Origin: Embleya hyalina
GTDB taxonomy: Bacteria; Actinomycetota; Actinomycetes; Streptomycetales; Streptomycetaceae
Direction: 5' to 3'
Length of the DNA: 64,000 nt
NCBI RefSeq assembly: GCF_003967355.1
Contig: NZ_BIFH01000042.1
Coordinates: forward strand, 62,001 to 126,000
Made by a program: the position numbers and the translations under genes
The notes under the pieces: model-generated
What the model saw: only the letters and a program-made list of their open reading frames with translations
Databases searched by the model: none
Told to the model about the DNA's origin: nothing
Shown: positions 16,366-40,193 of the stretch, piece after piece
How positions within the stretch are numbered: position 1 is the first letter of the stretch
Layout of the letters: each line of letters begins with the position of its first letter

Positions 16366-17466
16366 TCACGTGTCGGATGACGGGTGTTGCATCCAGCGTT
16401 CGCACGTCGTCGCGAACGCCTCGTTGTCGCCCCGGGCGCCGATCGACACCCGTACACCCTCGTCGGGGAAGACCCGCACGGCGATGCCGTCCTCGGCGCA
16501 GCGTCGGGCGAAGGCGGCGGAGTCCCCGCCGAGCGGCAGCCACAGGAAGTTGGCCTGACTGTCGGACACGCTCATCCCCGCGGCTCGAAGCGCGTCGCGC
16601 AGCCGGGTCCGCTCCCCGACGGCTTCCTCGACCCGGTCGAGCAGTCGTTCGCGCAGTTCCAGGGCGCGGACCGCGGCGGCCTGGGCCGGCGTGTTCAACG
16701 AGTAGGCCAGGTAGGCGCGACGGACGCGGGTGGTGATCGCGGGATCGCCGACCAGGTAGCCCACCCGCAGGCCGGCGAGGCCGTACGCCTTGGAGAAGGT
16801 GCGCAGGACGACGAGGTTGGGCCATCGCCGGTGGAGGACCAGCCCACTGACGACGCCCGGATCGCGCACGTATTCGAAGTAGGCCTCGTCGAGCACCACG
16901 AGCACGTCCGAGGGGACGCGGAGCATGAACTCCGCGAACTCCTCGTGGCCGACGACCGTGCCCGTGGGGTTGTTGGGGTTGCACACGACGACCATTCGGG
17001 TCCGGTCGCCGATCCGCTCGGCCATCGCCCCCAGGTCGTGGCCGCCGTCGCTCAGCGGGACCCGGACGCTGCGCACTCCCGCGAGATCGGCGAGCACCGG
17101 GTACAGCTCGAACGAACGCCACGCGTACACGACCTCGGCGCCGGGTTCGCCCACCGCCTGGAAGAGCATCTGGAGCAACGCGATCGAGCCCGCGCCCGGC
17201 ACGATCCGATCCTCGGGCACCCCGTGCACCCGGCTCAGCGTGGCGGTCAAGTCCCGCCCGCCGTAGTCGGGATAGCGGTTGACGTACAGGGCCGCGTCGG
17301 CCATCGCCGCCACGATCTCCGGGAGCGGATCGTGCGGTGATTCGTTGGAGCCCAGCAGGCGCGCGGGCCCCGCGGCGCGCGGGGCGACGCTCGGCTCGAA
17401 GAGCGCCGGCGCGTCCAGCACGGCGCGCAGCCGCGGACCGGATTCGCGCGTGTTCTCGGTGGACAT
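16366..17466 (-). CDS. Histidinol-phosphate-aminotransferase-like PLP enzyme (class I/II)
   Basis: 366 residues. Fold-type I motifs: LGSNESPHDPLPEI near residue 38, VVCNPNNPTGTVV, VLDEAYFEYV and the PLP lysine in RTFSKAYGLAGLRVGY. The family is HisC-like, but histidine genes are absent nearby, so it is more likely a dedicated transaminase for a pathway keto or amino acid. It starts 12 bp after the upstream methyltransferase and is followed by the gamma-lyase-family gene. Confidence 0.87.
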   Translation of the reverse strand: MSTENTRESGPRLRAVLDAPALFEPSVAPRAAGPARLLGSNESPHDPLPEIVAAMADAALYVNRYPDYGGRDLTATLSRVHGVPEDRIVPGAGSIALLQMLFQAVGEPGAEVVYAWRSFELYPVLADLAGVRSVRVPLSDGGHDLGAMAERIGDRTRMVVVCNPNNPTGTVVGHEEFAEFMLRVPSDVLVVLDEAYFEYVRDPGVVSGLVLHRRWPNLVVLRTFSKAYGLAGLRVGYLVGDPAITTRVRRAYLAYSLNTPAQAAAVRALELRERLLDRVEEAVGERTRLRDALRAAGMSVSDSQANFLWLPLGGDSAAFARRCAEDGIAVRVFPDEGVRVSIGARGDNEAFATTCERWMQHPSSDT

Positions 17467-17477
17467 CCGGTGGGCCC

Positions 17478-18467
17478 TCAACCGGAGACCACGAACATGC
17501 GGCTGCCCGGCATGCGCAGCGCGGTGCATCGCACGGAGGCGAACCCGGCGCGGTGAAAAGCCGACTCCCATTGCTCTCGGGTCGGCAACCGTACCCCCAT
17601 CGACTGGGCGTGCAGGTAGGTGAACAGGGCGCTGAACGCACGCTCGCGCGGCTCGGTCGCGAACGGGACCGCGTCGACCACGACCATCTTGCCGCCCCTT
17701 TCCCGGAGTTCGGCTCGGCAGGCGCGCAGTACACCGTCGAGGACGTCCGGCTCCGTCGCGATGTCGTGCATCACGAACCCGGCGTGCACCACGTCGGCCG
17801 CCGCCAGCGGGGAGGGGTCGTCGACGAGGGATTGGATCGGCCTGTTCAGCACGTCGAGCCGCTCGCTCAGGCCGGCGCGCGCCGCGAGTCGGGTGGCTTC
17901 GGCACAGGCCGCGGGGCTCAGATCGATGCCCAGGCCGGTGCAGTCGGTCCGTTGCCGGAGCAGGTTCGCGAGCAACCCGCAGGTACCGGAACCGAGGTCG
18001 ACCACCCGGGTGGGGTGGTCCGCCACGATCTCGGCGAAGGCGGGCGGATAGAAGCCCCGGGTGCCGACCCAGCGGGAGGACACGGCGACCCAGCGGCCGT
18101 CGCGAGCGTACTTCGCCCCGGCCCCGTCGCGGTCGCGCAGGAACTCGGGGGCGTTGGCCACGTAGGGGCGGTTGGCGTTCATCGCCCAGGCCACGTATCC
18201 GGCTTCGTGCCGGACGATGGGGAGGTCCGGCCGTCCCCGGTAGGTGCCGTCCTCCTCGGCGACGAGCAGTCCCGCGGCCACCAACGCGGCCAGGAATCCG
18301 GCCCATTCGCACGCCGGCACATCGGGAGCGGCCAGGCCGACGTCGTCCGCGGTGAAGCCGTCGGCGCTGTCGAGCAGCGTGGAGATCCCGAGGTCCTCGG
18401 CCATTTCGAGGAACGCGGCCGCGGCGGCCAGGTCGGCGGCGGTCTCGGTCGGGTATGGGGCGTTCAT
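17478..18467 (-). CDS. SAM-dependent methyltransferase (small-molecule type)
   Basis: 329 residues. A helical N-terminal region (~1-100) precedes the SAM domain with motif I VVDLGSGTCGLLANLL and IDLSPAACAEATRLA. A conserved His/Asp segment GFVMHDIATE resembles the catalytic region of plant/actinomycete O-methyltransferases, though other acceptors are possible. Start ATG 18467 has AGGAG 6 nt upstream; the longer frame lacks support. It lies 73 bp after the glutamate mutase gene. Confidence 0.82.
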   Translation of the reverse strand: MNAPYPTETAADLAAAAAFLEMAEDLGISTLLDSADGFTADDVGLAAPDVPACEWAGFLAALVAAGLLVAEEDGTYRGRPDLPIVRHEAGYVAWAMNANRPYVANAPEFLRDRDGAGAKYARDGRWVAVSSRWVGTRGFYPPAFAEIVADHPTRVVDLGSGTCGLLANLLRQRTDCTGLGIDLSPAACAEATRLAARAGLSERLDVLNRPIQSLVDDPSPLAAADVVHAGFVMHDIATEPDVLDGVLRACRAELRERGGKMVVVDAVPFATEPRERAFSALFTYLHAQSMGVRLPTREQWESAFHRAGFASVRCTALRMPGSRMFVVSG

Positions 18468-18540: not shown

Positions 18541-20466
18541 TCATGCCAGCGGCCAGTCGTCGAACTCGCCACGAGCGGTCGCCGACAGGTCTCGTTCGAG
18601 CAGCGCCACCACGTCGTCACCGTCACGGCGCAGGCGCGCGGCGACGGCGGCGCGATGGAACGCCTTGACGTCTTCGGGGAAGGGCAGAAGTCCCGTCTCG
18701 GCGAATCGCACCGCCTCCCCGCAGTCGCGCAGCGGAAGGGCCGAGCCGGCGTTCCATCTGCTCGGTGAGAACGGAACGTCCACCCAGCCGCGCTCGACCG
18801 CCAGGACGACCGCCCGGCCGATGTCGTGGTCGGCCGCGGCGAGCGCGCTGTCCACGATCGCGCGTGTCTCCGCGACGACCAGTTCCTCCTCGAAGCGGAC
18901 TTGGTCGTCGGCGGTTTCGGTCCGTCGGGCCCGGCACAGGTCGCGGACCAGGGTGAGCGATTCGCGGTTGTCGTCGAGGGAGGGGATGCGCACGGCCTCC
19001 GCGTGGGTCTTCAGCATCAATCGCACCGCGCCGCTGAGCACCGCGGATTCGGCGGAGCCGCGGAGGATCTGCCGGGCCTTGTCCTCGGATCGGGGGAACG
19101 CGCCCATGAACTGGTGCCAGACGACGCTGACTTCGACGTCGCGCAGACCCAGTCGCGCCAGATATTCCTCGCCCAGCCGCTGGATGGCGCGGACCGCTCC
19201 CACGTCCTGGGCACGGCAGCCCTGTTCCGCGTAGCCGAGGGTCACCGACTTCACGCCGCACTGTGCGGCCAGCAGCGCCTCGAAAACGTTCACGGCGGCC
19301 GCGACGCAGGGCGGTACCAGGCACGCGGTGAGCACTCCGAAGAACTCCCGGTCGATGGTGACGCCGAACTCCGCGTGGTAGCGACCGGCGAGCCGGTCGA
19401 CATAGCGCCACCGTCGGATCGCGTGCGCGATCGGGTAGTCGCGAAAGTAGGGGAGGTTGTAGGACAGCGCGCCGCCCTCGTACGCGGCGATCCCGGCCCC
19501 GAACGTGAGTTCCGCCAGCAGCCGCGGGTCGCGGGTGCTGTGCCGCACCTGGAAGGGGGTGTCCCCGAACATGGCGGACAGCCGTGCCATGGCCTCCAAC
19601 CCCAGGTTGACGGCCGGGTAGCCGTTCAACTGGGAGGCCTCGGGCGGAAGGTCGGCGGCGGCCTTGAGGATGCGTTCGATGTCCTCGTATTGGTTGTTGC
19701 GGGTCAACGAGTCGATCTGGAACGACAGCACGTCGGCCCCGTGCCGGCGCAGCGCCGAGAACAACGCCTCCTGTCCCTCGACGCTCGAGACCCCGGTGCG
19801 GGGCTGGACGAGGATCTCCCGGCGCGCCTTGGCCTCGCGTTGCCGGTCGGCCAGACTCGTGCGGGCCCTGAGTCGGTCCGCGTTGGCGGCCCGGTCGAGC
19901 GCGGCCGCTCCGGTGCGCCATGCCGGCAGCACGTCCTCGCGACGATCGCTCTCCGAGAGCGGAAGCACCACGGGCGTCTCGATCGGCGCGGATCGTCGCG
20001 CGCGCCGTGCCCTCTTCCTCGGCCGGCCCGCGAGATCGTCCCGCAGGCGGTGCAACACCGTGTCGGCGCTCACGTATCCCTGGAAGACCCGATCGAAGCC
20101 GAGGTCGTCCAGGTCCGCGGCGCGGTCGTCGAGCGCCGGATAGCCGCCGAGGTACCACAGTTGGCCGTCGAGACCGGCCTCGCGCCGGGCCGCGCGGAGG
20201 TCCGCCAGGTAGTACTTGGCGTGTCCGTCCATGTTGCTGATGAGAACGGCGTCGGTGTGCCCGGCGGCTCGGAGGATGGTGGTGAGATCTTGTTGAACGC
20301 CGAGGAAGTCCACGTCGAATCCGCCCCGCGCGAGCGCCTCGCGCAGTACGGTCAAACCCACCGAATGGGCGTCGGCTCCCACCCCTGCGAGCACGACGCG
20401 TCCGGCGGGCGGCCCCGATCGCCCCGGGGCGGCGTCGCGGTGCTCCTCGAGCATGCCCTGGTCCAT
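18541..20466 (-). CDS. Fused B12-dependent glutamate mutase (S and E subunits in one chain)
   Basis: 641 residues. Residues ~20-145 are a cobalamin-binding domain with the base-off motif D-A-H-S-V-G (GADAHSVGLTVL) and GGYPALDD further on, matching the small S subunit. Residues ~190-630 match the catalytic E subunit (SFQIDSLTRNNQYEDIE, PVSxxxTRD-like QVRHSTRDPRLL). A basic linker (RPRKRARRARR) joins them. The enzyme converts L-glutamate to (2S,3S)-3-methylaspartate by radical carbon-skeleton rearrangement. Friulimicin-type clusters use separate subunits. It probably supplies 3-methylaspartate to this pathway. Confidence 0.9.
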   Translation of the reverse strand: MDQGMLEEHRDAAPGRSGPPAGRVVLAGVGADAHSVGLTVLREALARGGFDVDFLGVQQDLTTILRAAGHTDAVLISNMDGHAKYYLADLRAARREAGLDGQLWYLGGYPALDDRAADLDDLGFDRVFQGYVSADTVLHRLRDDLAGRPRKRARRARRSAPIETPVVLPLSESDRREDVLPAWRTGAAALDRAANADRLRARTSLADRQREAKARREILVQPRTGVSSVEGQEALFSALRRHGADVLSFQIDSLTRNNQYEDIERILKAAADLPPEASQLNGYPAVNLGLEAMARLSAMFGDTPFQVRHSTRDPRLLAELTFGAGIAAYEGGALSYNLPYFRDYPIAHAIRRWRYVDRLAGRYHAEFGVTIDREFFGVLTACLVPPCVAAAVNVFEALLAAQCGVKSVTLGYAEQGCRAQDVGAVRAIQRLGEEYLARLGLRDVEVSVVWHQFMGAFPRSEDKARQILRGSAESAVLSGAVRLMLKTHAEAVRIPSLDDNRESLTLVRDLCRARRTETADDQVRFEEELVVAETRAIVDSALAAADHDIGRAVVLAVERGWVDVPFSPSRWNAGSALPLRDCGEAVRFAETGLLPFPEDVKAFHRAAVAARLRRDGDDVVALLERDLSATARGEFDDWPLA

Positions 20467-20469
20467 TCC

Positions 20470-21342
20470 TCAACCCGCCACGCGCGCGAGACGGGCCGGG
20501 TCGTCCGCCGCGTAGATCCGCACCAGCCGCCGGCGCCGCCGGCGCTCCTCGAAGGCGCGCCGACCGTGCACGTGGCGGGAGTTGCGCCAGATGAGCACCT
20601 CGCCGCGGCACAGGGCATGCGGACGTTGCACGTCGGGATCCGTCGCCACCTCGTCGATGACGTCGAAGGCATCGACAAGGCCGTCCGGGCACGTGCGGCC
20701 GGCCCGCTCCCACCCGGCGACGAGGTATCGCCGCAGGTAACGCAGGCCGACCACGCCGGCGTTCGCCGACAGGACCGGTGCCCAGCGGCGCACCCGGCCG
20801 GCGTCGTCCTCGGCGGCGAACGGTTGTGGCCGGCTCAGGAGTTCGAGGAACACGGGGTCGACCGCGGCCAGGGCCGCCCGGATCCGTTCCGCCTCGACCA
20901 GAATGGTCTCCCCGCCGGAGTCGGCGGGGCAAAGACACAGCAGGACACCGATCGCGGGCGGCTTCGCCAACAGGCTGCCGTCGGTGTGGAATCCGCCGGC
21001 CGCCCGGCTCGCCGAGTAGTGGCTGCTGCCCGACTCCCCGGCTCGTACCTCGACGGGATACACGAGTTCACCGGTGTCGTATTGGGGCACCGGCCGGGAG
21101 AAGGCGCACACCAGGTTCCAGGTCGCCACGGTCAACGCGTGATCGTCCAGGTCGGCCGGCAATGTCACGATCACCGAGCCCTCGGCGCGCAGCACGCCGT
21201 CCACGGCTTCCGCGCCCGCTCGCAGATCACCGTCGAGTGGTGGCGCCTCGACGGGCCACCGGTCGTCGGGAGTGGCCGGCGCCACGGTCCTGGCGGTCGG
21301 CCCGGCGGGCGCGTCGAGCGATATGCGCGTGGTCTCACCCAT
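20470..21342 (-). CDS. TauD/TfdA-family Fe(II)/2-oxoglutarate oxygenase
   Basis: 290 residues with the iron-binding HxD in GGFHTDGSLL (residues ~117-126), the distal His in NSRHVHGRRAF and a basic region (RRRRRRLVRIY) providing the 2-oxoglutarate arginine. The YSASRAAGGFHTDG context matches clavaminate-synthase-like members. It likely hydroxylates or desaturates an amino acid unit. It overlaps the ATP-grasp gene upstream by 8 bp and precedes the glutamate mutase by 3 bp, so one plausible substrate is the 3-methylaspartate unit. Confidence 0.88.
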   Translation of the reverse strand: MGETTRISLDAPAGPTARTVAPATPDDRWPVEAPPLDGDLRAGAEAVDGVLRAEGSVIVTLPADLDDHALTVATWNLVCAFSRPVPQYDTGELVYPVEVRAGESGSSHYSASRAAGGFHTDGSLLAKPPAIGVLLCLCPADSGGETILVEAERIRAALAAVDPVFLELLSRPQPFAAEDDAGRVRRWAPVLSANAGVVGLRYLRRYLVAGWERAGRTCPDGLVDAFDVIDEVATDPDVQRPHALCRGEVLIWRNSRHVHGRRAFEERRRRRRLVRIYAADDPARLARVAG

Positions 21343-22615
21343 GACCGTCCCCCTGGTCCAGTTCGAGTCGGATCGTCTTCTGGAGCATGGCGAATACGCC
21401 CGTGAGGCCCTCGTAGGTGTCCGCCGTGAAGAACGCGTGGCCGTAGCCCTGAAAGATGAACGGGGCCACGTCGACCGCGTCGCCCGGCTCCGGGTAGATC
21501 ATGAGCTCGCGGACGTGCGGGTGCGCCGCGGCCGCGGCTTCGCCGTGCACGGCCCGCACCTTGCCCGCCCGCTCGGCGAAGAACTGACAGAAGCCGGCCG
21601 GCGTCGACACGGCCTTCGGCGTGAGCCGAGGTGTCCGGCCGAGGGACAGATCCAGCACCGCGTGGATCATGTCGACGCCGGTACTGGTGAGCACCGACTG
21701 GAAGAGCGGGCCGCCGCCGATCCGGGCCGCGGTCTCCAGGATCGAGAGTCGACCGTCGGGTCGAATCCGGAACTCGGTGTGGGTGCCGCCGATGTCGATG
21801 CCCACGGCGCGGTGCGCCGCGGCGGTCGCGTGCCGGATCCGGGCCACCGTCTCGGGCGGCAGGCAGGTCGGCGTCGCGTAGAAGTATTCCTCGAAGTAGG
21901 GGCCGTTCGCCGGGAGCGGTTTGTCGTGGATCGCGACGACGTGGGTGTGGCCGTCGGCGACGACGGACTCGACGCTGATCTCCTCGCCGACGACGAACTC
22001 CTCGAGCAGGCACGCCCCCTGGTACTTCTCCAGCAGCACCTGGTGGAGGGGGTCGTACGCGAGGTCGTGCCAGGCCCGATCGCGCAGGGCCTCGAAGTGC
22101 TCGGCCAACTCCGTCGGACCGTCCACCCTGCGAATGTGCGAACTGCCGCCGCCGATGAAGGGTTTGAGCACCAAGGGGTAGCCGATGCGGCGCGCCCGGT
22201 CCAGGGCCGCGTCGACGGTCGCGGCGATGCCGAAGGCCGGCTGCTCCAGGCCCGCTCCTTCGAACGCCTGCCGCATCGCGTACTTGTCCCGGGCGATCTC
22301 GGCCGTCGACGGATCCACGAACGGCAGACCCAGGTGGGCGGCCACCGCGGCCGCGGCCGGAACGCTGTGTTCGCTGAACGTGACCACACCGCGGATCGGT
22401 TGCGGTTCGGCCTCGGCCAAGGCGGCGACGGCACGCACCGTCGCGGCCAGATCGGAGGTGTCGGCGTGCGCGAACGCGTCGACGAACTCCGTTTCCCAAC
22501 CCGGATCGCTCATCGCGAGCAGGAACCGCTCGCCGCGGTCCGCCGCGTACCGGCGGATGTGGGCGAAGTGCTGCCGACGGCTGACATTGCTCGAATGGAT
22601 CAGGAGGATGGCCAT
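21335..22615 (-). CDS. ATP-grasp carboxylate-amine ligase
   Basis: 426 residues with the ATP-grasp layout: preATP segment (1-105), YPLVLKPFIGGGSSHIRRV ATP loop (~145-163), LLEEFVVGEEISVESVV, and the Mg/ATP motif EFRIRPDGRLSILETAARIGG-like region (~265-285; ETAARIGG visible). The family includes dipeptide ligases such as BacD-type and carnosine-synthase-like enzymes. It should form an amide or peptide bond through an acyl-phosphate. This is the second of the three ATP-grasp proteins in the operon. Confidence 0.87.
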   Translation of the reverse strand: MAILLIHSSNVSRRQHFAHIRRYAADRGERFLLAMSDPGWETEFVDAFAHADTSDLAATVRAVAALAEAEPQPIRGVVTFSEHSVPAAAAVAAHLGLPFVDPSTAEIARDKYAMRQAFEGAGLEQPAFGIAATVDAALDRARRIGYPLVLKPFIGGGSSHIRRVDGPTELAEHFEALRDRAWHDLAYDPLHQVLLEKYQGACLLEEFVVGEEISVESVVADGHTHVVAIHDKPLPANGPYFEEYFYATPTCLPPETVARIRHATAAAHRAVGIDIGGTHTEFRIRPDGRLSILETAARIGGGPLFQSVLTSTGVDMIHAVLDLSLGRTPRLTPKAVSTPAGFCQFFAERAGKVRAVHGEAAAAAHPHVRELMIYPEPGDAVDVAPFIFQGYGHAFFTADTYEGLTGVFAMLQKTIRLELDQGDGHG

Positions 22616-22696: not shown

Positions 22697-23494
22697 TCAG
22701 CCACGGCTCGCGACCCGGATGACGGCGGAGCCGAGGCGATCGAACTCGGCGACGAACTCGTCGCCGGGACACAGCGGAACGGCGGCGTGCAGCGCGCCCG
22801 TGAAGATCAGCTGCCCGGGCTCCAGGGTGATGCCGTGTTCGCCGAGTTGGTTCGCCAGCCAGGCGACCACCGCGACCGGATCGCCCAGGGCGGCGGCGCC
22901 CGCGCCGGTGGCCACCACCCGGCCGTTGCGGGAGAAGACGCATCCGATGAGCCGGGGATCCATGTCCGCGGTCGGTGGCACCGGCCGACCGACCACGATC
23001 GCGCCCGCCGAGGCGAGGTCGGCGACGGTGTCGGCCAATCCGATACGCCAGTCCCGGATCCGCGAGTCCACGATCTCCAGCCCGGCCATGACCTCCCCGA
23101 TCGCCTCCCGTGCGTGGTCGACGGTCACGTCCGGTCCGCGCAGCGGCGCCGACAGCCGGAAGACGATCTCGGCCTCCATCTTCGGATCGATGAACGTGTC
23201 CATCGACAACGTGGCTCCGTCGGGATGAACCGTGGAGGCCAGGACCGGTCCGTAGTCGGGTGTGGAGACACCGAACATTCGCTGCATCGGCTCCGAGGTG
23301 AGCCCGGCCTTGTAGCCGACCACCCGCTCCCCGTCGGCCAGGAGCATCGCGACCAACTCCCGCTGGATCGCGTAGCCGTCGGCCATGCCGAGGCCGGGGT
23401 CCTCGTCCGTGAACGGTGGGATCGGCTTGCGGGTGGCGCGCGCCTCGTACAGTCGTCGGGCCCGGTCGCGGACGGCGGAGTCGGGGCCGGTCAT
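22697..23494 (-). CDS. 2-keto-4-pentenoate hydratase-family protein
   Basis: 265 residues. Family motifs: VGYKAGLTSEPMQRMFGV (residues ~58-75), KMEAEIVFRL with the metal-binding acidic residues, and GLEIVDSRI. Hydratases of this group (MhpD/DmpE) add water to 2-hydroxypenta-2,4-dienoate to give 4-hydroxy-2-oxovalerate; the same fold also decarboxylates. With the aldolase and acylating dehydrogenase next door, the protein could dehydrate a 4-hydroxy-2-oxo acid here. It overlaps the ACP stop by 4 bp (ATGA). Confidence 0.88.
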   Translation of the reverse strand: MTGPDSAVRDRARRLYEARATRKPIPPFTDEDPGLGMADGYAIQRELVAMLLADGERVVGYKAGLTSEPMQRMFGVSTPDYGPVLASTVHPDGATLSMDTFIDPKMEAEIVFRLSAPLRGPDVTVDHAREAIGEVMAGLEIVDSRIRDWRIGLADTVADLASAGAIVVGRPVPPTADMDPRLIGCVFSRNGRVVATGAGAAALGDPVAVVAWLANQLGEHGITLEPGQLIFTGALHAAVPLCPGDEFVAEFDRLGSAVIRVASRG

Positions 23495-23724
23495 CGGGCG
23501 TCCGCCGCGTGTCGTGACATGAGGTCGGCGATCTCCTCGATCGTGCCGACGTTCGCCAGTTCGTCGTCGGAGATGTCGATACCGAGCTTTTGCCTCAGCA
23601 CCATCGACAGTTCCACGAGGGCCAACGAGTCCAGACCGGCGTCGTCCAGGGTGGTCTCCGGCCGCAGCGTCGTGTCCGTCACGTGGAGGTCGCCGACGAG
23701 GACGTCCTTGAGGGCTTCGTACAT
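23491..23724 (-). CDS. Free-standing acyl carrier protein
   Basis: 77 residues from ATG 23724 (a TTG four codons upstream is the alternative). The phosphopantetheine serine is in LDDAGLDSLALVEL, and the helical ACP pattern is intact. Placed between the KAS III gene and the hydratase gene, it is the likely acyl acceptor or donor for the ketosynthase. No malonyl transferase, ketoreductase or other chain-elongation gene accompanies it, so at most one condensation is expected. Confidence 0.92.
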   Translation of the reverse strand: MYEALKDVLVGDLHVTDTTLRPETTLDDAGLDSLALVELSMVLRQKLGIDISDDELANVGTIEEIADLMSRHAADAR

Positions 23725-23761
23725 ACGGGAAACCAATCTCTTCGGGATCGACAGGGGGCGT

Positions 23762-24781
23762 TCAGTCGTCGGTGCGCGGCTTGACGTCCGGCCAGAGCAC
23801 GGTGGTGGCGCCCCAGGTCAGTCCGCCACCGAAGGCCGTCATCAGCACTCGGTGCCCGGTGCGGAGCCGTCCCTCGTCGGCCGCCTGGGCGAGCAGGATC
23901 GGGATCGACGCGGCGGCGGTGTTGCCCACCCGGGCGATGTTCTCGACGCGGCGCTCGGCAGGAAGCCCGAGGCGGTCGGCGACGTTCGCCGTGATGCGCG
24001 CGTTGGCCTGGTGCGCGACCAACCTGTCCACGTCGGCGACGTCCCATCCGGCCGCCGCCAGCGCGTCGGCCGCCGCTTCGCCCATGCGTTCCACGGCGTG
24101 CCGGAACACCTTCCGTCCCTGCATCTCGAAATATCCCGCACGGGCGCCTCCGGGCTCGGGCGACGCCACGCCCGAGGGGCGCACCGTGATCAGGTCCCGT
24201 TGCGCGCCGTCGCTGCCGAGGATCACGGGCCCGAGGGCGCCCGGGTCGCCGGCGCGACCGCGCCGCAGCAGCACGGCGCCCGCCCCGTCGCCGAAGATCG
24301 GCACGGTGGTGCGATCCTGCGGGTCCGTGAGCGTGGAGAACCGGTCGGCGGCGATCAGCAGGACCCGGTCGGCCGTGCCGGACACCACCAGACCGGCGGC
24401 GACGGCGAGGCCGTACAGGAATCCGGTGCACACGGCCGCGATGTCGAATGCCGCCCCGGACAACCCGAGTCGGGCGGCGACCAACGGCGCGGAGGCGGGG
24501 CAGGTGCGATCCGGGGTGGTCGTGGCGAGCACGACGGCTTCGGCACCGTCCTCGTCGGCGGAGCGCAGGGCCCTGGCTCCGGCGGTCGTCGCGATGTCGG
24601 AGGTCAGGGTGTCGGGGTCACAGATCCGCCGCTCGAGGATGCCGGTGCGGCCGGCTATCCAGTCCTCGGTGGTGTCCAGGCGCGCCGCGAGATCCGCGTT
24701 GCCGACCACGTTCGGCGGCAGCCAGGACCCCAGACCTCCGATCACCGCGGTCGGCGCCCCGGTTCCGTCCGGCCCCCTCAC
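23762..24781 (-). CDS. 3-oxoacyl-ACP synthase III (FabH-like)
   Basis: 339 residues. The Cys-His-Asn triad is present: [11 protein letters not shown] (Cys near 113), AHQANARI (His near 260) and NTAAASIP (Asn near 291), with [10 protein letters not shown] at the end. KAS III enzymes condense an acyl-CoA starter with malonyl-ACP; relatives in secondary metabolism also form esters or simple transfers. It overlaps the aldolase stop by 4 bp. With the adjacent ACP it may prepare a short acyl unit for the acylating dehydrogenase; direction and substrate are inference. Confidence 0.9.
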
Positions 24782-25872
24782 GGCGCACCACCGGGGACGG
24801 CCGCGACCGGAGTCGACGGGGGACCGGAGGAGCGGCGCAGTTCCTCGGCCACCTCCACGATCAGGTCCTCCTGGCCGGCGACGGCCTGGCGCCGGCCGAG
24901 TTCGAAGAAGACGTCGCGCGGATCGACCCCCTCGCGGCCCGCGATGTCCAGCACCCGTGTCTTGAACCCGGAGAAGACCCCCGACAGCCCGCTGACCACG
25001 GCCACCGAGTCGATCGTCGGCGGTGCCGGCATGAGTTCACGCTCCGCGAAGTCCGCCGCGTCCAGGAGCCGGTAGAGATCCACCCCCGTGGCATAACCCA
25101 GCCGTTCCAGGACGGGCACCACGACTTCGAGTTGCGCGTTGCCCGCGCCGGCGCCGAATCCGCGCGCGCAGCCGTCGATGATCCGCGCGCCGGCCCGCAC
25201 GGCGGCGACCGAATTGGCCACCGCCATACCGAGGTTGTTGTGCGCGTGGAAGATGACGGGTACGTCGACCGCCGCGGTGATGGCGGCGACGCGTTCGCTT
25301 ACGTCCGGCGGCAGGTAGTGGCCCGAGGAGTCGAAGATCCCGACCGCCGAGGCGCCGAACCCGACCAGCCGCAGGCATTCCTCGGCCAACCGTTCCGGGG
25401 CGGCCATGTGGCTCATGAGCAGCACCGCGTGCGCCTCCACCTCGGCGTCGCGGAGGAAGTCGAGGTGGCGCTCGGCGAGATCGCCCTCGGTGCAGTGCGT
25501 CCCCACCCGCACCACGTCGGCTCCCAGCGCGATCGCCTGGCGCAGGTCGCTCGACGTACCCCATCCGGGCAGGAGGAAGACCCCCATGCGACTGGTCGTC
25601 AGCGCTTCGCGGACCGCCTCCAGCATGCTCGCGTCGCTCAGCGCGGCACGGCCCACCTGGAGGGAGGACGCGCCCAGCCCGTTGCCGTGCCCCACCTCCA
25701 CGACCGGGATACCGGCCGCGTCGGCCGCCGCCGCGTATCCACGCAGTTGCTCGCGCCCCAGACGATGGCGCACCGCGTGGTGGCCGTCGCGCAGCGTCGG
25801 GTCGTGGATGTGGATCCGCGGCGGGTCCGCCTCCGAGGTACAGCCGGTCCCCGAACTCTCGCGCGGTGTCAT
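24778..25872 (-). CDS. 4-hydroxy-2-oxovalerate aldolase-like enzyme (DmpG/NikB type)
   Basis: 364 residues of the HMGL-like aldolase family: [14 protein letters not shown] with the metal Asp near residue 24, [18 protein letters not shown], and metal His-x-His in [14 protein letters not shown], then a C-terminal communication domain. DmpG cleaves 4-hydroxy-2-oxo acids into pyruvate and an aldehyde; in nikkomycin NikB is placed in the opposite, synthetic direction. It overlaps the dehydrogenase gene by 4 bp as in all DmpFG-like pairs, so aldehyde channelling is likely. Start ATG 25872 fits the overlap. Confidence 0.9.
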
Positions 25873-26747
25873 GTCCGTCCCCCCAGGGGCGCCGGGTGCC
25901 GCTCGGCGACGTGGACGGCCGCGGCGTTGATGATGTCCAGATTGCCCGCGTAGTGCGGGATACGATCGCCGGTGGCCTCGACCTCGACGGCGACGAAGAC
26001 CACACCGTCGGCCACGGAGCACACCTTGATCCGATAGCCCGGGACGAAGCGCCGCATCGCGACGGCGGCCTCCTCCACCAGGACGGACACCCGTTCGGGG
26101 TCCGCGGCCGGGGCCAGGAGAGAGATCGCCACCCGAAACGGGGACGGCGGTTGTGCGGGGCTCAGGTTCACCATGACCTTGCTGTCGGCCACGCCGGTGA
26201 ACCGGGTCACCGCGGCCCGCGTGGTCTCGATGTACTCGTCGAGGTTCATCCGGGTGGCTCGACCGACGCTGCGGCTCGCGGCGGTCGTGACCACCTCGAT
26301 GTACTCGGCCGAGATTTCCCGGGCCAGGCGGTGCAGCACCGGTAGCGCGGCCTGTCCGCCGCAGCTGATGAGGTTGACGTTGGCGTGCCTGCCGGCTTCG
26401 GCGCCGTTGACCGTCGGGGCGACCATCGTCCCGATCATGCTCGGGGTCAGGTCGATCATTCGGGTCCCGGTGGGTTGGAGGAGCGCCCAGTGTTCGGCGT
26501 GGGACATCGCGTTCGTCGCGTCGAAGACGATGTCGTAGGGCTCGGACGAATCCAGCAACGCGTCGATGCCCTTGGACGAGGTCCGGCAGCCGAGCGCTGC
26601 CGCCATGCGCAGTCCCCGGGCCTGATCGTCGCGTGCCACGACGAGACGGCACTCCAGCAGAGGCGAGCGTCGGATCTTCGTGACGAGGTCGACTCCGATG
26701 AGCCCGGCGCCCAGGACGGCCACGGTGAGTGGTCTGCCGCGATCCAC
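25869..26747 (-). CDS. Acylating acetaldehyde dehydrogenase-like enzyme (DmpF/NikA type)
   Basis: 292 residues (usual ~310). The N-terminus has the NAD-binding [17 protein letters not shown]; the catalytic cysteine lies in [11 protein letters not shown], as in DmpF. These enzymes interconvert acyl-CoA and aldehyde with NAD(H), in complex with the DmpG aldolase that follows. In catabolic operons the pair degrades 4-hydroxy-2-oxovalerate; in nikkomycin NikA is thought to reduce an aryl-CoA. Start GTG 26747 has AAAGGA upstream. Here a synthetic role is favoured because no aromatic ring-cleavage genes are nearby. Confidence 0.9.
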
Positions 26748-26800
26748 GTGCGTATGTCCTTTCGTGTTTCGGGTGTCGCCGAATGCGGCGCCCGCCGCCG

Positions 26801-28000
26801 TCACGGCGTGTTCGCTTCCCGCATGGCGTCGGCCATGCGTTCCGCGACGCGATCCAGGATCGACGGCGCCGTGGCGAAGTTGAGGCGAACGAAGCCGGTG
26901 CCGGCCCGACCGCAGGCGGCGCCGTCGACCACGCTCACCCCGGCCCGGGTGTCGAAGAAGTCGGCCAGGCCGTGCCACGGCAGGCCGGAACGGCGGAAGT
27001 CCAGCCATCCCAGGAACGTGCCCTGGGGGGCCGAGTAGCGCACTCCGGGCAGCGCCCGGACCAGCCGACCCAACCGGTGTCGGTTCTCGTCGAGTTGGAC
27101 CAGGACCTCGTCGAGCCATCCTCGGCCATGTCGGTAGGCGGCCGTGGCGGCCAGCACTCCGAGCGTCGAGGCGCCGTCGGTGTCCAGTCGGCCGAGGCCG
27201 GCCCAGCGCTCGCGGTCGGCGTCGTTGCTCAGCACCATCTGCGCGCACTTCAGACCCGCGAGATTCCACGCCTTGGACGCGGACACCGCGGTGACGGTGT
27301 GCTCCGCGGCCTGTGTCGACGTCGAGGCGTAGGGGATGTGCCGGTGGCCCATGTAGGTGATCGGCGCGTGGATCTCGTCCGCGAACACCCGTCCGCCGTG
27401 CCGCTCCACCACCGTGGCGACGGCACGGAGTTCGTCGAGTTCGAGAACCCGGCCCGTCGGATTGTGCGGATTGCACAGCACCAGCAGGTGGCCGCCGGCC
27501 GCGAACGCGTCGTCCAGGGCGTCGAGATCATGGGAGGGACCTTCCCTCCCGTTCTCGCGAAGTGGTACTTCCAACACGTCCCGCCCGAGCAGTCGGGGAA
27601 TGGTCAGGAACGGCATGTAGGCGGGCGTCGGCACGATGACCGGCGACATCGGTCTGGAGAAGCGCTCGATGGCCACATGCAGGGCGCGCAGCACGTCCGG
27701 GAGCACCCGGACGTCTCCCGGCGCCACCCGCCATCCGTACTCCTCGAACTGCCAGGTCGCACACGCCTCCCGCAACCGGGCATCCACGGCGGTGGGGAGA
27801 TAGCCGACCAGTCCGGTCTCGATCGCCTCCGTCAGGGCCGTCGCCACCGGTGGCGCGACTCCGAAGTCCATCTCCGCGGCTCCGGCGCCGAGCCGGTCCG
27901 GGCCGGTCTCGGTCCACTTGACGGAACCCAGGGCCCACAACGACTCCTCGGTGACACGCGACAGGCGCATGCCCATCGAATGGGCCCCGACCGAGGTCAC
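26801..28000 (-). CDS. MalY/PatB-like PLP aminotransferase or C-S lyase
   Basis: 399 residues. Motifs: [37 protein letters not shown] and the PLP lysine in [19 protein letters not shown], the pattern of MalY/PatB cystathionine beta-lyase-like proteins. These cleave C-S bonds or transaminate. The start GTG 28000 has GGAGG upstream and overlaps the ATP-grasp stop by 4 bp. It lies directly before the dehydrogenase/aldolase pair, so it could aminate the 4-hydroxy-2-oxo acid to a gamma-hydroxy amino acid, a role NikK-type enzymes play in nikkomycin. Confidence 0.86.
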
Positions 28001-29325
28001 AGCGCCTCCACGACGGTGCGCAGCGCGGTTTCGAGTTCGCGGACGCGCGAGACCGAGGGCGCGACGAGCAGGCATTCCAGCGCCTCGGTCTGTGTGGGCT
28101 CGCACGCCAGGACGACCACGCCCTCCCGGCGCTCCGGTGTGAGATCGAGGCCGTGTTCGCGCGCCGCCGCCACCACCCTCGCCAGTGGCACGGGCCTGAC
28201 GTCGCGCAGGGAGGAGGCGACCGAGTGGTCGGCGTAGTCCTCGCCGAGCAGCCGGGAGGCCACGGTGTGCAGGACCAGGCCGCCGCCCCAGCGGGCGTTG
28301 ACCTCGTTGAAGATCAGTTCGCCGGACGCGGTGACGATGGCGTCGATGTTGAGGTATCCGCGATAGCCGATGTCGGCGGCGAGCACGGCGAATCGCGTCG
28401 CGTGGGTCAGGGCCTGGGCGAGCGAGTGAGGGGGCAGGTCCGCCGGCAATTCGAGGCCCACCCAGGACAGGCGCTCGTCCGCGGCGGTGCCTTCGCGGAC
28501 GAGCCGGATGGTGCCGCTGTTGACGAAGCGGGGGACGCCCGAATCGGCGACGAGGTATTCGAAGTAGAACATGTGGCGGGCCGCGGGATGGTAGACCTCG
28601 ACCACCACACCGGGGTCGTGTTCCTGCGACAGTTCCGTCCACAACTTCTCGGCCGTCTCGGCGACGTCCGGCCCGATCCGGCGAGTCTCCCGGGCGCCCG
28701 GCAACGGTCCGAGGTCGTCGGCCGCGAGCACCACGTTTCCCAGGCCACCGCCCGCGTTGTGCTGTTTGACGATGACGGCGCCCGTGGCGGGCATGTGTTG
28801 TTCGATGGCGCGGGCCAGTCGGGTGGGCGATTGCACGACGGAGCCCGCCGCCAATGGCATGCCGATACCGGCCGCGAGCCGCCTGAAGTGGCCCTTGCGG
28901 TTGAGCAGGTCGGACCCGCGTTCGGCGGCGAACGCCGATCCGTCGCACCCGATGCCCAGTCGCTCGGCGAGCTCGGCCACGCCCTCGGTCACGTAGCACG
29001 CCATGATGCGCCAGTTCGGATGGTCGGCGATCGCCAGGCGAAGTTCGGCCACGAAGTCCGGCGCGAGGATGACCTCGTCGGTGAGGACCCGGTCGCGCAG
29101 CACGACGGAGATCGTGCCGGCGTCGAAGCCGAGGGTCCCTCCCACATGATCGAGGAACTCCCGATCGATCGGGGCGGGACTGGCGATGACGTCGCCGGCC
29201 TCCGCGTACCACGAAGTACGCCGGCAGGCCCGCACGAGGGGGTGTCGGTCGCTCAACCCGATTTCCGGAGGAAAATCGGCCCGGACATTGAGCAGGAGTA
29301 TTTTGCGCGTACTCTGGTTCGTCAT
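27997..29325 (-). CDS. ATP-grasp peptide ligase, PGM1-like
   Basis: 442 residues. A preATP-grasp domain (~1-150) precedes the ATP-grasp part: AVIVKQHNAGGGLGNVVL (~185-202), VVVEVYHPAARHMFYFEYLV, and the metal site LIFNEVNARWGGG (~335-347). This layout resembles PGM1, the pheganomycin peptide ligase, which couples N-terminal non-proteinogenic acids to peptides. It is the third ATP-grasp type in the operon and the most likely to form the main peptide bond. Start ATG 29325 gives MTNQSTRKILLL. Confidence 0.85.
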   Translation of the reverse strand: MTNQSTRKILLLNVRADFPPEIGLSDRHPLVRACRRTSWYAEAGDVIASPAPIDREFLDHVGGTLGFDAGTISVVLRDRVLTDEVILAPDFVAELRLAIADHPNWRIMACYVTEGVAELAERLGIGCDGSAFAAERGSDLLNRKGHFRRLAAGIGMPLAAGSVVQSPTRLARAIEQHMPATGAVIVKQHNAGGGLGNVVLAADDLGPLPGARETRRIGPDVAETAEKLWTELSQEHDPGVVVEVYHPAARHMFYFEYLVADSGVPRFVNSGTIRLVREGTAADERLSWVGLELPADLPPHSLAQALTHATRFAVLAADIGYRGYLNIDAIVTASGELIFNEVNARWGGGLVLHTVASRLLGEDYADHSVASSLRDVRPVPLARVVAAAREHGLDLTPERREGVVVLACEPTQTEALECLLVAPSVSRVRELETALRTVVEAL

Positions 29326-29358: not shown

Positions 29359-29793
29359 CTACTCGGTGATGACATGTCGACCGGCGGCCATGCTCTCCTC
29401 CCAGTTCCGGCCGTCGAACTCGACGTACTCGACCCGTTGCGCGAAGCTCAGATCCAGACAGCGGGCGTTCACACTGAAGAATCCGACCGGATGCGACCGT
29501 GGTCGATAGAAGGGCATGATGCCGCACACCGCGCAGAATGTGTGATCGGCGATGCGGTTGCCGAACCGATAGGGTTTCAGGAACTGTTGGCCCTCGTGGA
29601 GCTCGAAGCGCTCCTCGGGAATCATCAACTCCTGGTGACCCGACATGTAACAGATACGACAGTTGCACAGGGTCACGGTCAGGTTGCGGCTCAGTTCGAC
29701 GGAGAATTTCACGCCGCCGCAGTGACACTGCCCGTTGCACTGGATGCGCTCTATTCCGTCGTGCGATTCCCGGTTCCGGCCGTCGTCGCTCAT
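29359..29793 (-). CDS. GFA/CENP-V-like zinc-binding protein
   Basis: 144 residues with the GFA zinc-cysteine pattern: CHCGGVKF (~24-31), LCNCRICYMSGH (~43-54) and FCAVCGIMPFYRP (~88-100). The family was named for a glutathione-dependent formaldehyde-activating enzyme, but most members are uncharacterised zinc or thiol-adduct proteins. Start ATG 29793 with GGGAGG upstream; it overlaps the oxygenase stop by 4 bp, so it is a pathway protein by context. Whether it is catalytic is unknown. Confidence 0.85.
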   Translation of the reverse strand: MSDDGRNRESHDGIERIQCNGQCHCGGVKFSVELSRNLTVTLCNCRICYMSGHQELMIPEERFELHEGQQFLKPYRFGNRIADHTFCAVCGIMPFYRPRSHPVGFFSVNARCLDLSFAQRVEYVEFDGRNWEESMAAGRHVITE

Positions 29794-30653
29794 CGGTCCT
29801 CCCGAAGTCGTCGAAAGGGGTTCGACAACGACGCCGACGGAAGCGGATCGTCGTGCTCGACGAAGGGAATCCGCACCGACACGGGGCGTTTCTCGTGCGG
29901 CACCAACGCGTCGTGCGGGTAGGACACGTGCCCGGCGATCGCGGGTCTGCGGGTGAAGAAGATCGCCATGTCGCGGGTGGCGGCCTCCTCCTCGCGGACG
30001 GCGAAGACGGGCGAGAGGCTGTGCTTGCGTTCGTGATCGGCGATCAGCACCGTGTCGAGGAAATCCCGGTGCTGATAGCTGCCGAGTCGAAGCCCGGGAT
30101 CGACCGCGTCCCAGGGGGTGCCGTTCGTCTCCGCCGGGTCGTGCAGGAAGGTGACCGCGCTCGTGGGGGCCATGTTGCGGCTGCCGAGGAGTGTGGTCAT
30201 GGTGTGGTCCACCCCGTCGCTGTGCACCCCTTCGAGGGCCGGTTCGCCGAGCAGCTCGGGGACGGTCACCGTACGAATGCTGAAGAGCGTGCACACCCAC
30301 TGCGCCGCGGAGTAGTCCAGGTACGGACGGGGCGCCACGGCCACGCCGTCCACGACCAGGGCCTTGAAGATCAGCAGTGCCTGGAGGGCGGTATTCGACT
30401 GGAGATCGTCCTCGATCTCATCGAAGATCCGTATCACTCCCGAATCGTGTCGCACGAAGTCCTCCTCCGCGGTCAGCACGAAGGGTTGCGCGCTCATGCG
30501 ATATATACATCGGTTCTCCATGTCGAAACAGAACCTGCCGTTGCGCGTCCGGCGAAAGGCCAGGGTCGGATCGGACGACAAACCGTCGCTCACTTGCTTG
30601 ATACCTTCGAGATCATGCTCGTGCGCACCCATGTCGATCAGGAGCTTGGCCAT
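29790..30653 (-). CDS. 2OG-Fe(II) dioxygenase (isoleucine 4-hydroxylase-like)
   Basis: 287 residues from ATG 30653, which has GAGGGAG 6 nt upstream. The frame stays open with TTG 30803 and GTG 30788, neither with a good ribosome site. The iron-binding HxD is in GVHSDGVDHTM (~160-170), the distal His in GHVSYPHDAL and the 2-oxoglutarate Arg near the C-terminus, the pattern of the family that includes Bacillus L-isoleucine 4-hydroxylase. It is the first gene of the operon, downstream of the AT-rich promoter zone. A free amino acid is the likely substrate. Confidence 0.78.
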   Translation of the reverse strand: MAKLLIDMGAHEHDLEGIKQVSDGLSSDPTLAFRRTRNGRFCFDMENRCIYRMSAQPFVLTAEEDFVRHDSGVIRIFDEIEDDLQSNTALQALLIFKALVVDGVAVAPRPYLDYSAAQWVCTLFSIRTVTVPELLGEPALEGVHSDGVDHTMTTLLGSRNMAPTSAVTFLHDPAETNGTPWDAVDPGLRLGSYQHRDFLDTVLIADHERKHSLSPVFAVREEEAATRDMAIFFTRRPAIAGHVSYPHDALVPHEKRPVSVRIPFVEHDDPLPSASLSNPFRRLREDR

Positions 30654-31399
30654 GCGGGCTCCCTCGATGAACACGGTGCGATCCCGTATGTAGGCGGATC
30701 GAATGTCTCGAATTTCCGATGGGACGCCATTATCGGGACGGGCCACCTGTCCCCCTGGTTTTGGACTGTCGACGAATGTGGCGCTCACTCGCGAACCGAA
30801 CAAGCCGGTCGACCATTGCTTTCGAGAATCCTGCTGCGAAACCCTGCTCGACCAGCATTCGGAGATCCGGCGCGGGACCGTCGGGAACGCCCTGTGGCCG
30901 CCGGCCCTTTTTGGGGAGCAACTGTCGAATATGACGTTAGCAAAACGAGATTATTGCAGGGTACACATATTCGAGCCAAGCCGAAGGCTCGTCCACTTGC
31001 AACCATTTGTTTATTTTTCTACGGATGATCTTATTTGCCCGAATTCGGCTACCGGAATGCAGCTTCCCAGGTCATCCGGACGAAGTATCTCTGCGGCAAG
31101 GCGCGGTCGATCCCGAGCGCCCGCGGCGCGCCCGGCGCGAAGATCGACGCTGACGTGCCTTGCCGGAACCGATGACGATGAAGTACGGGGGACGCCCTCC
31201 GCTTGTCCGACCGACTCCGAAGCCGGACGTCCCCCGCGCTCACCACCCGGTGCCGACCGAACGTCGGCGGCCCACCCCGGTGGTTGCGTACGAAGGAGTC
31301 CGGAGCCCGGCCCCACCCCTCTCCGCGGCGCGATGGGCGTGCGGGGCGATGTCGCCCGAAGGCGCCGAAGAACGCGCCTCCTCGTGGTGCGGTGTGTGG
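30654..31399. other. Intergenic zone with AT-rich promoter region of the biosynthetic operon
   Basis: No convincing gene. From ~30915 to 31070 the composition falls far below the window average, unlike anything else here. Reading the minus strand, TTGGCT followed by ~17-18 nt and CAATAAT (near 30945-30985) could be a promoter for the biosynthetic operon, leaving a ~280-nt leader. A short hairpin CGAGCC/GGCTCG lies at 30972-30991 inside the same stretch. From 31100 to 31240 nothing recognisable was seen. Confidence 0.5.
31243..31284 (-). terminator. Nested hairpin downstream of the decarboxylase gene
   Basis: Inner stem GCCGAC (31252-31257) with GTCGGC (31263-31268) and a 5-nt loop; outer stem ACCACC (31243-31248) with GGTGGT (31279-31284). 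It lies ~115 bp past the end of the minus-strand decarboxylase gene and could end that operon before the AT-rich promoter zone. Confidence 0.4.
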
Positions 31400-33244
31400 T
31401 TATCGGCAGTTCTCGTCGACCTTGTATTGCATCGCTCTCGGGTAGTCGCGCCGGTCCAGCAGCACCCGGACCAGGATCGGGCCGCGGTTGATCGAGTGGT
31501 CCGGGTCGGTGACCTTGGCGAGGAGGGCTTCGAGGTCGGTGTGGGTGCGAACGCTCGCGCCCGTCATCGGGTGTTTCTCGGTACCGAAGACGTCGGCGAG
31601 TCGTTCGTAGCGCCATACGTGCAGCTCGTTGTAGAACTCGGCTCCCTCGGACGGGTTCTCCGCGTAGAAGCAGGGGTGTACGAGCATCTGCTCGATGCCG
31701 TAGAACCCCTCGTTGTCCAGAACGAACACGATGGGTCGCAGCCCGTGCCGGACCTGGGTGGACAGTTCCTGGCAGGTCTCCTGGAAGGAGCCGTCGCCGA
31801 CGAACACCAGGGGCCGCTTCTCCGGCTCCTGCCTTGCCAGCGCGACGCCGGAGGCGGCGCCGACCGAGTAGCCGATGGACAGCCAGCTGTTCTGGGCCAC
31901 GAAGGAGGCGCGCTCGACCATGTTCAGGTTCATCGAGCCGATCAGGGCGAACGCCGCGTCGGAGACGACGGTGAACGGGTTGACGCGCGCTCCGGGCGTG
32001 CCGCTGTCCTGGTCCCGGAGGAAGGCGTTGACGTGGCGGAAGAAGCTGTCGTACGTCAGGTCGGTCGGGTAGTCGCCGCCCACCAGGCCGGCCAGGTAGG
32101 CGGAGGTGGTGGCGGGCACGTCCAGGCCCGCCGCGTGTGCCTGGGCGAAGTAGTCGGCGGCGAAGACGCCCGCCCCGAACTCGGCGGTCAGGGCCTCGCG
32201 CAGGGCCGGGACGAACCGCGCGAGTTGCACGTCGGGGAAGTAGGAGGCGCCGACGTTGACGCCCTCGTGGGCGGCGACGGCCCAGTCGGCGCCGATGGAC
32301 TGTTCGCCGCCGAGGTTCTTCGACGTCGCCCACGACCCGAGGCCGATGCGGCAGCCCGCGGCGTGGAACACCTTGTACACGTCGGGGTCGCTGGCCTTGC
32401 CGTTGTAGACGCCCGAGTAGCCGGGGGTCTCCTCCGAGACGACGGCCTTGGCGCCGATGGTGGTGCAGAACGGGATACGGGTATCGCGTACCAGCGCGGT
32501 GAGTTCGTCGGAGAGCCGGAAGCGGTCGATCTCCTCGCCGGCCCACAGGATCGGGTTGCCGGCGGTGCGGATCAGGTCGACGGTCGCCGCGACGGCCTTG
32601 GCGAGCATGCGTCGGTTCGCTTCGGTGAACGGCCGTTCGCGTGCGGTCAGCCGGCCCTGCGGCGCGGGGCACGGCGCCGACCACACGTCCGCCATGACTT
32701 CCAGGTAGACCGGTCGGCGATGGGTCAGGCAGGCGGTGATGGCGCTGTCGATCTGAATGGGCGCCAGGCCGGGGTTGGAGATCGCCTGGGCGTCGACGGT
32801 GACCTGCCGGTAGACGTCGAGGTTGCTTTCGGGGCGCTGGATCATGTGCGTGGTGAGCAGGCCGATCGCCTGCTGGTTGAGCCACTGTTCGTGGCTGGGC
32901 GCGGCGTTGATCGCGATCACCGGCACGAATTCGGCGTAGGCGCCGCCGATGGGGTTGAGCAGGTTGAACGCGCCCACTCCGTAGGTGACGGCACACGCGG
33001 CGACGCCCTGCTCGCCGAGCGCGAGGTCGGCGTCGGCCGAGGTGACCCGGGCGTAGGCGTCGGCGGCGTACCCGGCGCCGACCTCGGTGGGGGTACCCAC
33101 CCAGCGCACCGCGGACTTGGCGCGCATCGTGGTCAGGAACGGGCCGAGGAGATCGCCCGGAACCCCGAACAGGTGTTTGATGCCGATTTGTTCGAGCCTG
33201 ACGGCGAGGTATTCGGCGACAGTGCAGTCCTGGTTCGCGGTCAT
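31400..33244 (-). CDS. ThDP-dependent 2-keto-acid decarboxylase-like enzyme
   Basis: 614 residues with the three-domain pyruvate/indolepyruvate decarboxylase layout. The catalytic glutamate is in [18 protein letters not shown] (~48-65); the ThDP/Mg motif runs from [11 protein letters not shown] to VLDNEGF. Such enzymes decarboxylate aromatic or branched 2-keto acids to aldehydes. The gene overlaps the amino-acid oxidase by 4 bp (ATGA), so the two steps are coupled: amino acid to keto acid to aldehyde. An aromatic or branched substrate is a guess. Confidence 0.88.
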
Positions 33245-36123: not shown

Positions 36124-36158
36124 TTGTCACTGGTATGCGCGTTGTATACATTGTGTTC
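36124..36158 (+). promoter_or_regulatory. Putative leaderless promoter with embedded palindrome, GntR gene
   Basis: TTGTCA (36124-36129), 17 bp, TACATT (36147-36152), placing the start of transcription at or near the ATG at 36159. There is no Shine-Dalgarno sequence. The palindrome TGTATACA (36143-36150) overlaps the -10, as expected for autorepression by an FadR-type GntR protein. Confidence 0.5.
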
Positions 36159-37663: not shown

Positions 37664-37673
37664 GGAACCACTT

Positions 37674-39826: not shown

Positions 39827-39831
39827 CCGCC

Positions 39832-40176
39832 GTGAGCAAGCCCGAGCACGAGTTCTTCCCCGTCTCCGACATCGGGTTCACCCCGTGTCCGGGAGACGAC
39901 CCGGCGATCACCGAACGCGTCCTGGCCAAGGACCCCGCCACCGGGGTCGCGACCCGAATCCTGCGCTACGCACCGGGAGCCGACTCCACCCCGATGGGCG
40001 TGCAGCGCCACGACTTCTGGGAAGAGGTGTACATCCTGGAGGGCTCGTTCACCGACATCACCCTGGGCCGCACGTTCACCGCCGGCATGTACGCCTGCCG
40101 CCCGCCGGGCATGCCGCACGGGCCCTGGCGAACCGACGAGGGCGTGGTCACCTTCGAAGTGCGCTATCGCGCCTGA
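39832..40176 (+). CDS. Single-domain cupin protein
   Basis: 114 residues. The cupin core is RHDFWEEVYILEGSFTD (metal-type His and Glu positions) and a second motif GMPHGPW. GTG 39823 overlapping the HpaB stop is an alternative start, but its ribosome site would be only 2 nt away. Small cupins act as dioxygenases, isomerases or binding proteins. In this operon, ring opening of the hydroxylated product is possible but unproven. Confidence 0.8.
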   Translation: MSKPEHEFFPVSDIGFTPCPGDDPAITERVLAKDPATGVATRILRYAPGADSTPMGVQRHDFWEEVYILEGSFTDITLGRTFTAGMYACRPPGMPHGPWRTDEGVVTFEVRYRA

Positions 40177-40193
40177 GCATCGGAGACAACGAC

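Follow-up and report, generated by a model that had tools for sequence, protein, structure and literature searches.

A NikA/NikB-like dehydrogenase-aldolase pair in an ATP-grasp ligase operon of Embleya hyalina

Pairs of an acylating aldehyde dehydrogenase and a pyruvate aldolase are found in catabolism, as DmpF/DmpG, and in nikkomycin biosynthesis, as NikA/NikB. Positions 22697-28000 of a 64,000-nucleotide stretch of Embleya hyalina DNA (contig NZ_BIFH01000042.1, positions 62,001 to 126,000; the whole stretch is called the window here) encode such a pair, which raises the question of which role it plays and what it might make. Gene calling on the window, with protein families taken from Pfam and other profile matches, placed six genes of this block on the minus strand. 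In the order of transcription, these encode a PatB-family pyridoxal phosphate (PLP) enzyme (26801-28000), a NikA/DmpF-type acylating aldehyde dehydrogenase with its active-site Cys in the motif SCGGQA (25869-26804; PRK08300, 1.5e-94), a NikB/DmpG-type pyruvate aldolase with a communication domain (24778-25872; HMGL-like, 9e-40; DmpG_comm, 5e-24; PRK08195, 3e-129), a beta-ketoacyl-acyl carrier protein synthase III (KAS III; 23762-24781; PRK09352, 6e-107), a free-standing acyl carrier protein (ACP) with a DSL serine motif (23491-23724; PP-binding, 8e-14), and a 2-oxopent-4-enoate hydratase-like enzyme (22697-23494; TIGR03220, 3e-71, under the equivalog cut-off). Most adjacent genes overlap by 4 bases. 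Gene calls and family matches bear out the original prediction, made by a model from the sequence, that a DmpF/DmpG pair stands here with KAS III, ACP and hydratase. The block is embedded in a minus-strand operon of about 20 kb (9113-29325), whose genes overlap or lie at most 81 bases apart. On balance, we think that it is probably the core of a module making an unusual amino acid, which ATP-grasp ligases would join into a small peptide.

Phylogeny and active-site pocket of the aldolase

In a tree of 74 aldolases, a 100/100 branch parts 17 catabolic enzymes from the window aldolase and from those of the nikkomycin-like loci and every other neighbourhood type; as the tree is midpoint-rooted, this is a bipartition rather than a rooted clade. 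Clustering with the catabolic enzymes, which the original prediction had named as evidence against it, was not seen. The catabolic rows include four enzymes of solved structure and a second copy from the E. hyalina genome (about 12 Mb). For the copies of other genomes, "catabolic" refers to sequence and tree position, gene company having been checked for the own-genome copy only. This copy lies in one stretch with a monooxygenase, a BphC-type extradiol dioxygenase, a hydrolase, a hydratase and DmpF. The catabolic DmpE/DmpF/DmpG (BphH/BphJ/BphI) enzymes share protein families and catalytic residues with the window proteins but differ in pocket signature and gene company, and the window aldolase is only 42-43% identical to the own-genome copy. 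Its identity to the NikB homologue of the nikkomycin-like locus L040 is 73%, and it reaches 65-80% to most loci of a set from Streptomyces, Micromonospora, Amycolatopsis, Nocardia, Kitasatospora, Serratia, and Xenorhabdus. Many of these loci carry a hydratase, an ACP, a C-methyltransferase and a HisC aminotransferase, often together with genes for non-ribosomal peptide synthetases (NRPSs).

Using the own-genome catabolic monooxygenase and extradiol dioxygenase as queries, we found no meaningful match in the window, and Pfam scanning of window proteins (all those of the operon and of the nearer flanking genes) revealed neither an extradiol nor an intradiol dioxygenase. The extradiol dioxygenase and hydrolase that stand alongside the pair in a catabolic meta-cleavage operon are absent from the window operon. 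The claim that this region is free of ring-cleavage genes was borne out by these searches.

Alignment of the aldolases showed that Arg17, Asp18, His21, His200, and His202 (1NVM numbering) are conserved wherever these columns are present, and the window enzyme has the residues of the DmpG/BphI class II type. The pocket, which the original prediction had proposed to compare, carries the NikB-side signature. Position 291, equivalent to BphI Tyr290, is Tyr in 17/17 catabolic rows and Phe on the NikB side, with Val in L081 as the sole exception. At position 88 (BphI Leu87), the catabolic rows have Leu, and the window enzyme and most relatives have Phe; the two nikkomycin-like rows have Leu and a distant group has His. 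In BphI, the Y290F exchange abolishes stereocontrol, the double exchanges L87W/Y290F and L87N/Y290F reverse it, and L89A makes room in the pocket for longer aldehydes (PMC3962088). Carrying these mutant results over to natural enzymes, we read the Leu kept by the window aldolase at the Leu89 position as a sign of a short aldehyde. This residue is Ala, Gly, or Val in several loci that belong to a different neighbourhood type (L066, L071, L072, and L075-L077, all NikB-type), which by analogy suggests that their aldolases accept longer aldehydes.

Together with the recurrence of the pair beside ACP and hydratase described below, tree and pocket make a synthetic, NikA/NikB-like role, as originally predicted, the well supported reading of these sequences.

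The recurring gene module and a proposed pathway

We compared the neighbourhoods of 79 aldolase relatives, with limited flanks. One neighbourhood type comprises a methyltransferase, a hydratase, NikA, NikB, an ACP, a HisC aminotransferase, and a protein with an LnmK N-terminal domain. Locus L025 has a similar gene set, with KAS III replacing the LnmK-like protein. An ACP was found within 6 kb of the aldolase in 20 loci, 13 of them with an LnmK-like protein, six with KAS III, none with both and one with a partial KAS III match. The either-or pattern draws on these 20 loci; over all 79 loci the relation between KAS III and LnmK was not significant (Fisher test, p 0.19). LnmK is an acyltransferase/decarboxylase that produces propionyl-ACP. 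Since KAS III and LnmK-like proteins exclude each other beside the ACP, both seem to be acyl-ACP suppliers, and the pattern suggests that they are interchangeable in this task. The window KAS III shares 55-67% identity with its counterparts in the module loci and 36-41% with three further KAS III proteins of its own genome.

The two remaining parts of the module lie 5-9 kb downstream of the block. These are a S-adenosylmethionine (SAM)-dependent C-methyltransferase resembling 2-ketoarginine methyltransferase (17478-18467) and a HisC-type aminotransferase (16366-17466) homologous to the aminotransferase portion of NikT-type fusion proteins. The C-methyltransferase is rare, being found in 4/395 genomes of the class with the window's own counted, and is accompanied by the hydratase in all 12 NikB-type loci that carry it. 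Compared with LnmK-containing NikB-type loci such as L009-L017, L048, L053, and L057, the window shares hydratase, NikA, NikB, ACP, HisC aminotransferase and, with most of them, the methyltransferase, but has KAS III where they have the LnmK-like protein and ATP-grasp ligases where many have nearby NRPS genes. A literature search for the module returned nothing useful.

From this gene content we predict the direction of the reactions, the substrates, the order of steps and the product. KAS III would load the free-standing ACP with a short acyl group, and the NikA-like dehydrogenase would reduce the acyl thioester to an aldehyde and hand it to the NikB-like aldolase. Addition of pyruvate would give a 4-hydroxy-2-oxo acid, which the hydratase homologue, as a predicted dehydratase, would dehydrate. 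The methyltransferase would then methylate the dienol at C3, and amination by the HisC-type enzyme would yield a 2-amino-3-methyl-4-enoic acid, the likely product. Finally, the ATP-grasp ligases would couple this amino acid to other residues, one perhaps derived from 3-methylaspartate made by the operon's glutamate mutase. The product would be similar to a residue of cyclomarin, 2-amino-3,5-dimethylhex-4-enoic acid, which is derived from valine and pyruvate (PMC8401383); its skeleton is what the proposed steps would yield from isobutyraldehyde. The common ground, aldehyde plus pyruvate, dehydration, C3-methylation, and amination, concerns the predicted skeleton logic only. The window operon lacks an NRPS and would obtain its acyl group via KAS III and ACP.

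The identity of the aminating enzyme is one point on which the original prediction has to be revised. It took the enzyme bracketing the pair at 26801-28000 for an aminotransferase; this protein belongs to the C-S lyase-like PatB family and is not a plain aminotransferase. We set it aside in favour of the HisC-type protein, the likely aminating enzyme by homology, which is a recurring part of the module and, in the nikkomycin-like locus, forms a fusion with the ACP. KAS III, too, is better read as an acyl-ACP supplier. The synthetic role held up, but the picture was incomplete, as the C-methyltransferase, the glutamate mutase, the three ATP-grasp ligases and the likely aminotransferase of the operon had been missed.

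Other neighbourhoods on the NikB side differ in gene content. In L018, L058, L073, and about 40 similar loci, NikA/NikB lie beside a major facilitator superfamily (MFS) gene, a cupin_8 oxygenase, an aminotransferase, an HpcH/HpaI lyase, an OCD/mu-crystallin protein and a MaoC-type hydratase. In actinomycetes, a glutathione-synthetase-like ligase is usual in loci of this type and an M24 peptidase frequent; the type also occurs in Serratia and Xenorhabdus. The NikB-side pairs of L079 and L082-L086, from Bdellovibrionota, Fibrobacterota, Thermoleophilaceae, and a methanogen metagenome-assembled genome, lie by nucleotide-sugar, thiamine diphosphate (ThDP) or DegT genes and possibly serve sugar-related aldol chemistry. 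L158:4055-7789 holds a divergent, compact set of NikA, an aldolase (51%), a methyltransferase and a hydratase, with no ACP recognised.

Glutamate mutase and alternative readings

Next to the methyltransferase gene lies a gene for a fused glutamate mutase, in which the sigma B12 domain and epsilon form one chain (18541-20466). The DxHxxG B12 motif and Arg66, Arg100, Arg149, Glu171, Tyr177, Tyr181, Lys326, and Glu330 are all present; since these residues are kept, 3-methylaspartate is the likely product. A mutase also belongs to the nikkomycin system (NikA, NikB, NikT, NikU/NikV, NikS; seen here via L040 and L026), which shares with the window the NikA/NikB-type pair, an ACP with a HisC-type aminotransferase, and an ATP-grasp ligase. 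In the window, however, ACP and aminotransferase are separate and the mutase is one fused chain, and hydratase, KAS III, C-methyltransferase and two further ATP-grasp ligases are added. L040 encodes an ACP-aminotransferase fusion, an ATP-grasp protein, a uracil phosphoribosyltransferase, a thioesterase, an adenylation protein with MbtH, a DegT aminotransferase, a flavin adenine dinucleotide (FAD) oxidase, an acyl ligase, and a radical SAM protein, which we take to correspond to named Nik proteins. The nikkomycin nucleoside and picolinate genes (radical SAM, uracil phosphoribosyltransferase, lysine aminotransferase, picolinate-CoA ligase) are present in L040 and are not among the families of the window operon.

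Several points weigh against a 2-amino-3-methyl-4-enoic acid made from short acyl-ACP and pyruvate. Among the actinobacterial NikB-type enzymes, the window aldolase splits off early and without a resolved position, so that no near relative of established product reveals its substrate, and the comparison with cyclomarin presupposes that the cyclomarin genes encode enzymes of these types. Furthermore, a mutase feeding 2-oxobutyrate to the aldolase, as it probably does in nikkomycin biosynthesis, could make the methyltransferase redundant. The 3-methylaspartate would then be converted to 2-oxobutyrate and replace pyruvate at NikB, giving a 4-hydroxy-3-methyl amino acid of the homothreonine type, with hydratase and methyltransferase acting elsewhere. 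The complete mutase of the operon speaks for this donor. So does the nikkomycin-like locus, where NikA/NikB stand together with a fusion of ACP and aminotransferase and with a mutase relative, and so does the finding that the nikkomycin peptidyl moiety has L-glutamate as a precursor, with sanU/sanV encoding a glutamate mutase (PMC2787493). We nevertheless regard it as unlikely. Within the limited flanks examined, no mutase was found in the other loci with hydratase and methyltransferase and no methyltransferase in the nikkomycin-like loci, whereas the window has both devices; in G315, moreover, a mutase fusion adjoins a TauD gene and a gene for an L-amino acid ligase (LAL)-type enzyme, without a NikB-type aldolase. 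This separation and the arrangement in G315 favour the mutase as the source of a separate building block.

A further point of the same kind is that the Cys-His-Asn triad is intact in the window KAS III and in all nine full-length relatives aligned: with a full condensing triad, the enzyme could form a beta-ketoacyl-ACP and not merely load an acyl group. If it condensed acyl-CoA with malonyl-ACP, the substrate of the NikA-like dehydrogenase would be an acyl-ACP with a beta-keto group or in a further processed form, which would make for a longer and more oxidised amino acid. A short-chain dehydrogenase does adjoin KAS III and ACP in Type B loci, but the window operon has no ketoreductase, KAS III and LnmK-like proteins swap beside the ACP, and the window aldolase keeps Leu at the position where Ala, Gly, or Val, found in several loci of another type, resemble the pocket-widening mutation in BphI (PMC3962088). 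We consider this course rather improbable. That the pair and the hydratase are a catabolic remnant, degrading 4-hydroxy-2-oxovalerate from an aromatic pathway encoded elsewhere, is hardly credible. The enzyme families are identical and the genome does have an aromatic-degradation operon; this operon, however, is separate and complete with its own copy, and the window copy lies across the tree branch from the catabolic enzymes, has the other pocket signature and shares its operon with ACP, KAS III, ligases, and an exporter. On the grounds of tree, pocket and gene company, we rejected the catabolic reading.

The ATP-grasp operon and its neighbours

The operon encodes three ATP-grasp ligases and no NRPS. 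A Pre-ATP-grasp/PGM1-type ligase with weak similarity to BesA (27997-29325; PreAtp-grasp, 1.2e-22) lies directly upstream of the block. Directly downstream is an ATP-grasp L-amino acid ligase (21335-22615), followed by a TauD-type 2-oxoglutarate (2OG) oxygenase (20470-21342) that adjoins the glutamate mutase here, as in G315. The third is the product of 9784-11190, which has no Pfam family. Its structural model (mean pLDDT 73.5, a middling confidence) gave 43 PDB matches at E<=0.001, which are ligases of the glutathione/glutathionylspermidine synthetase type and relatives, with a resemblance to eukaryotic glutathione synthetase; as modelled, it has the ATP-grasp fold of the glutathione synthetase type and is a predicted ligase. 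A homologue lies near the aldolase in 32 of the 79 loci. In L137 and L139-L142, from five genomes of the same family, two LAL-type ligases, an MFS exporter and a glutathione-synthetase-like ligase are conserved as a block, and one of these genomes has a glutamate mutase about 14 kb from it.

The other genes downstream of the aminotransferase encode a PLP enzyme of Cys/Met metabolism (gamma-synthase/lyase family; 15027-16334), an OsmC-domain protein (13984-15030), a flavoprotein of the lysine/ornithine N-monooxygenase family (12519-13910), an MFS exporter (11216-12514), and a second SAM methyltransferase (9113-9772). Upstream, the operon probably extends to 30674 through two more minus-strand genes, for a GFA-domain protein (29359-29793) and a 2OG-Fe(II) oxygenase (29790-30674; 2OG-Fe_Oxy_2, E 1.4e-45) that is the probable cluster end. 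Adjoining the cluster at 31400-35364, an L-glutamate oxidase gene (1224 bits to 7e0c) overlaps a gene resembling ThDP decarboxylases. We had considered 33241-35364 as a starter-making oxidase and rejected this, since it is the L-glutamate oxidase; with the ThDP enzyme, past a 726-base gap, it is probably a unit separate from the operon. The plus-strand genes at 36153-40715, for a GntR regulator, a carbon-nitrogen hydrolase, a DUF2848 protein, an HpaB-type monooxygenase, a cupin and a flavin reductase, are likely a separate operon as well.

Our most specific picture, which we offer as tentative, is that of an NRPS-independent peptide. The KAS III/ACP-fed NikA/NikB relay would supply the 2-amino-3-methyl-4-enoic acid, with NikA drawing its acyl group from ACP and not from CoA, mutase and TauD would supply a hydroxylated residue of the 3-methylaspartate type, and the three ligases would join them. 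NikB, with its natural Tyr-to-Phe substitution, may give aldol products of altered or opposite stereochemistry.

The operon is a variant of the known NikA/NikB route, placed in an ATP-grasp setting. Far from being a nikkomycin curiosity, the NikA/NikB pair belongs to a broad and apparently synthetic branch of DmpF/DmpG enzymes found beside varied gene sets. Natural aldolases of this branch carry a substitution known from engineered BphI. As a simple pocket signature separates this branch from the catabolic enzymes, genome mining for aldol-derived amino acids becomes straightforward. By coupling such an amino acid to ATP-grasp ligases, the E. hyalina operon would represent a small-peptide route overlooked by NRPS-centred mining.

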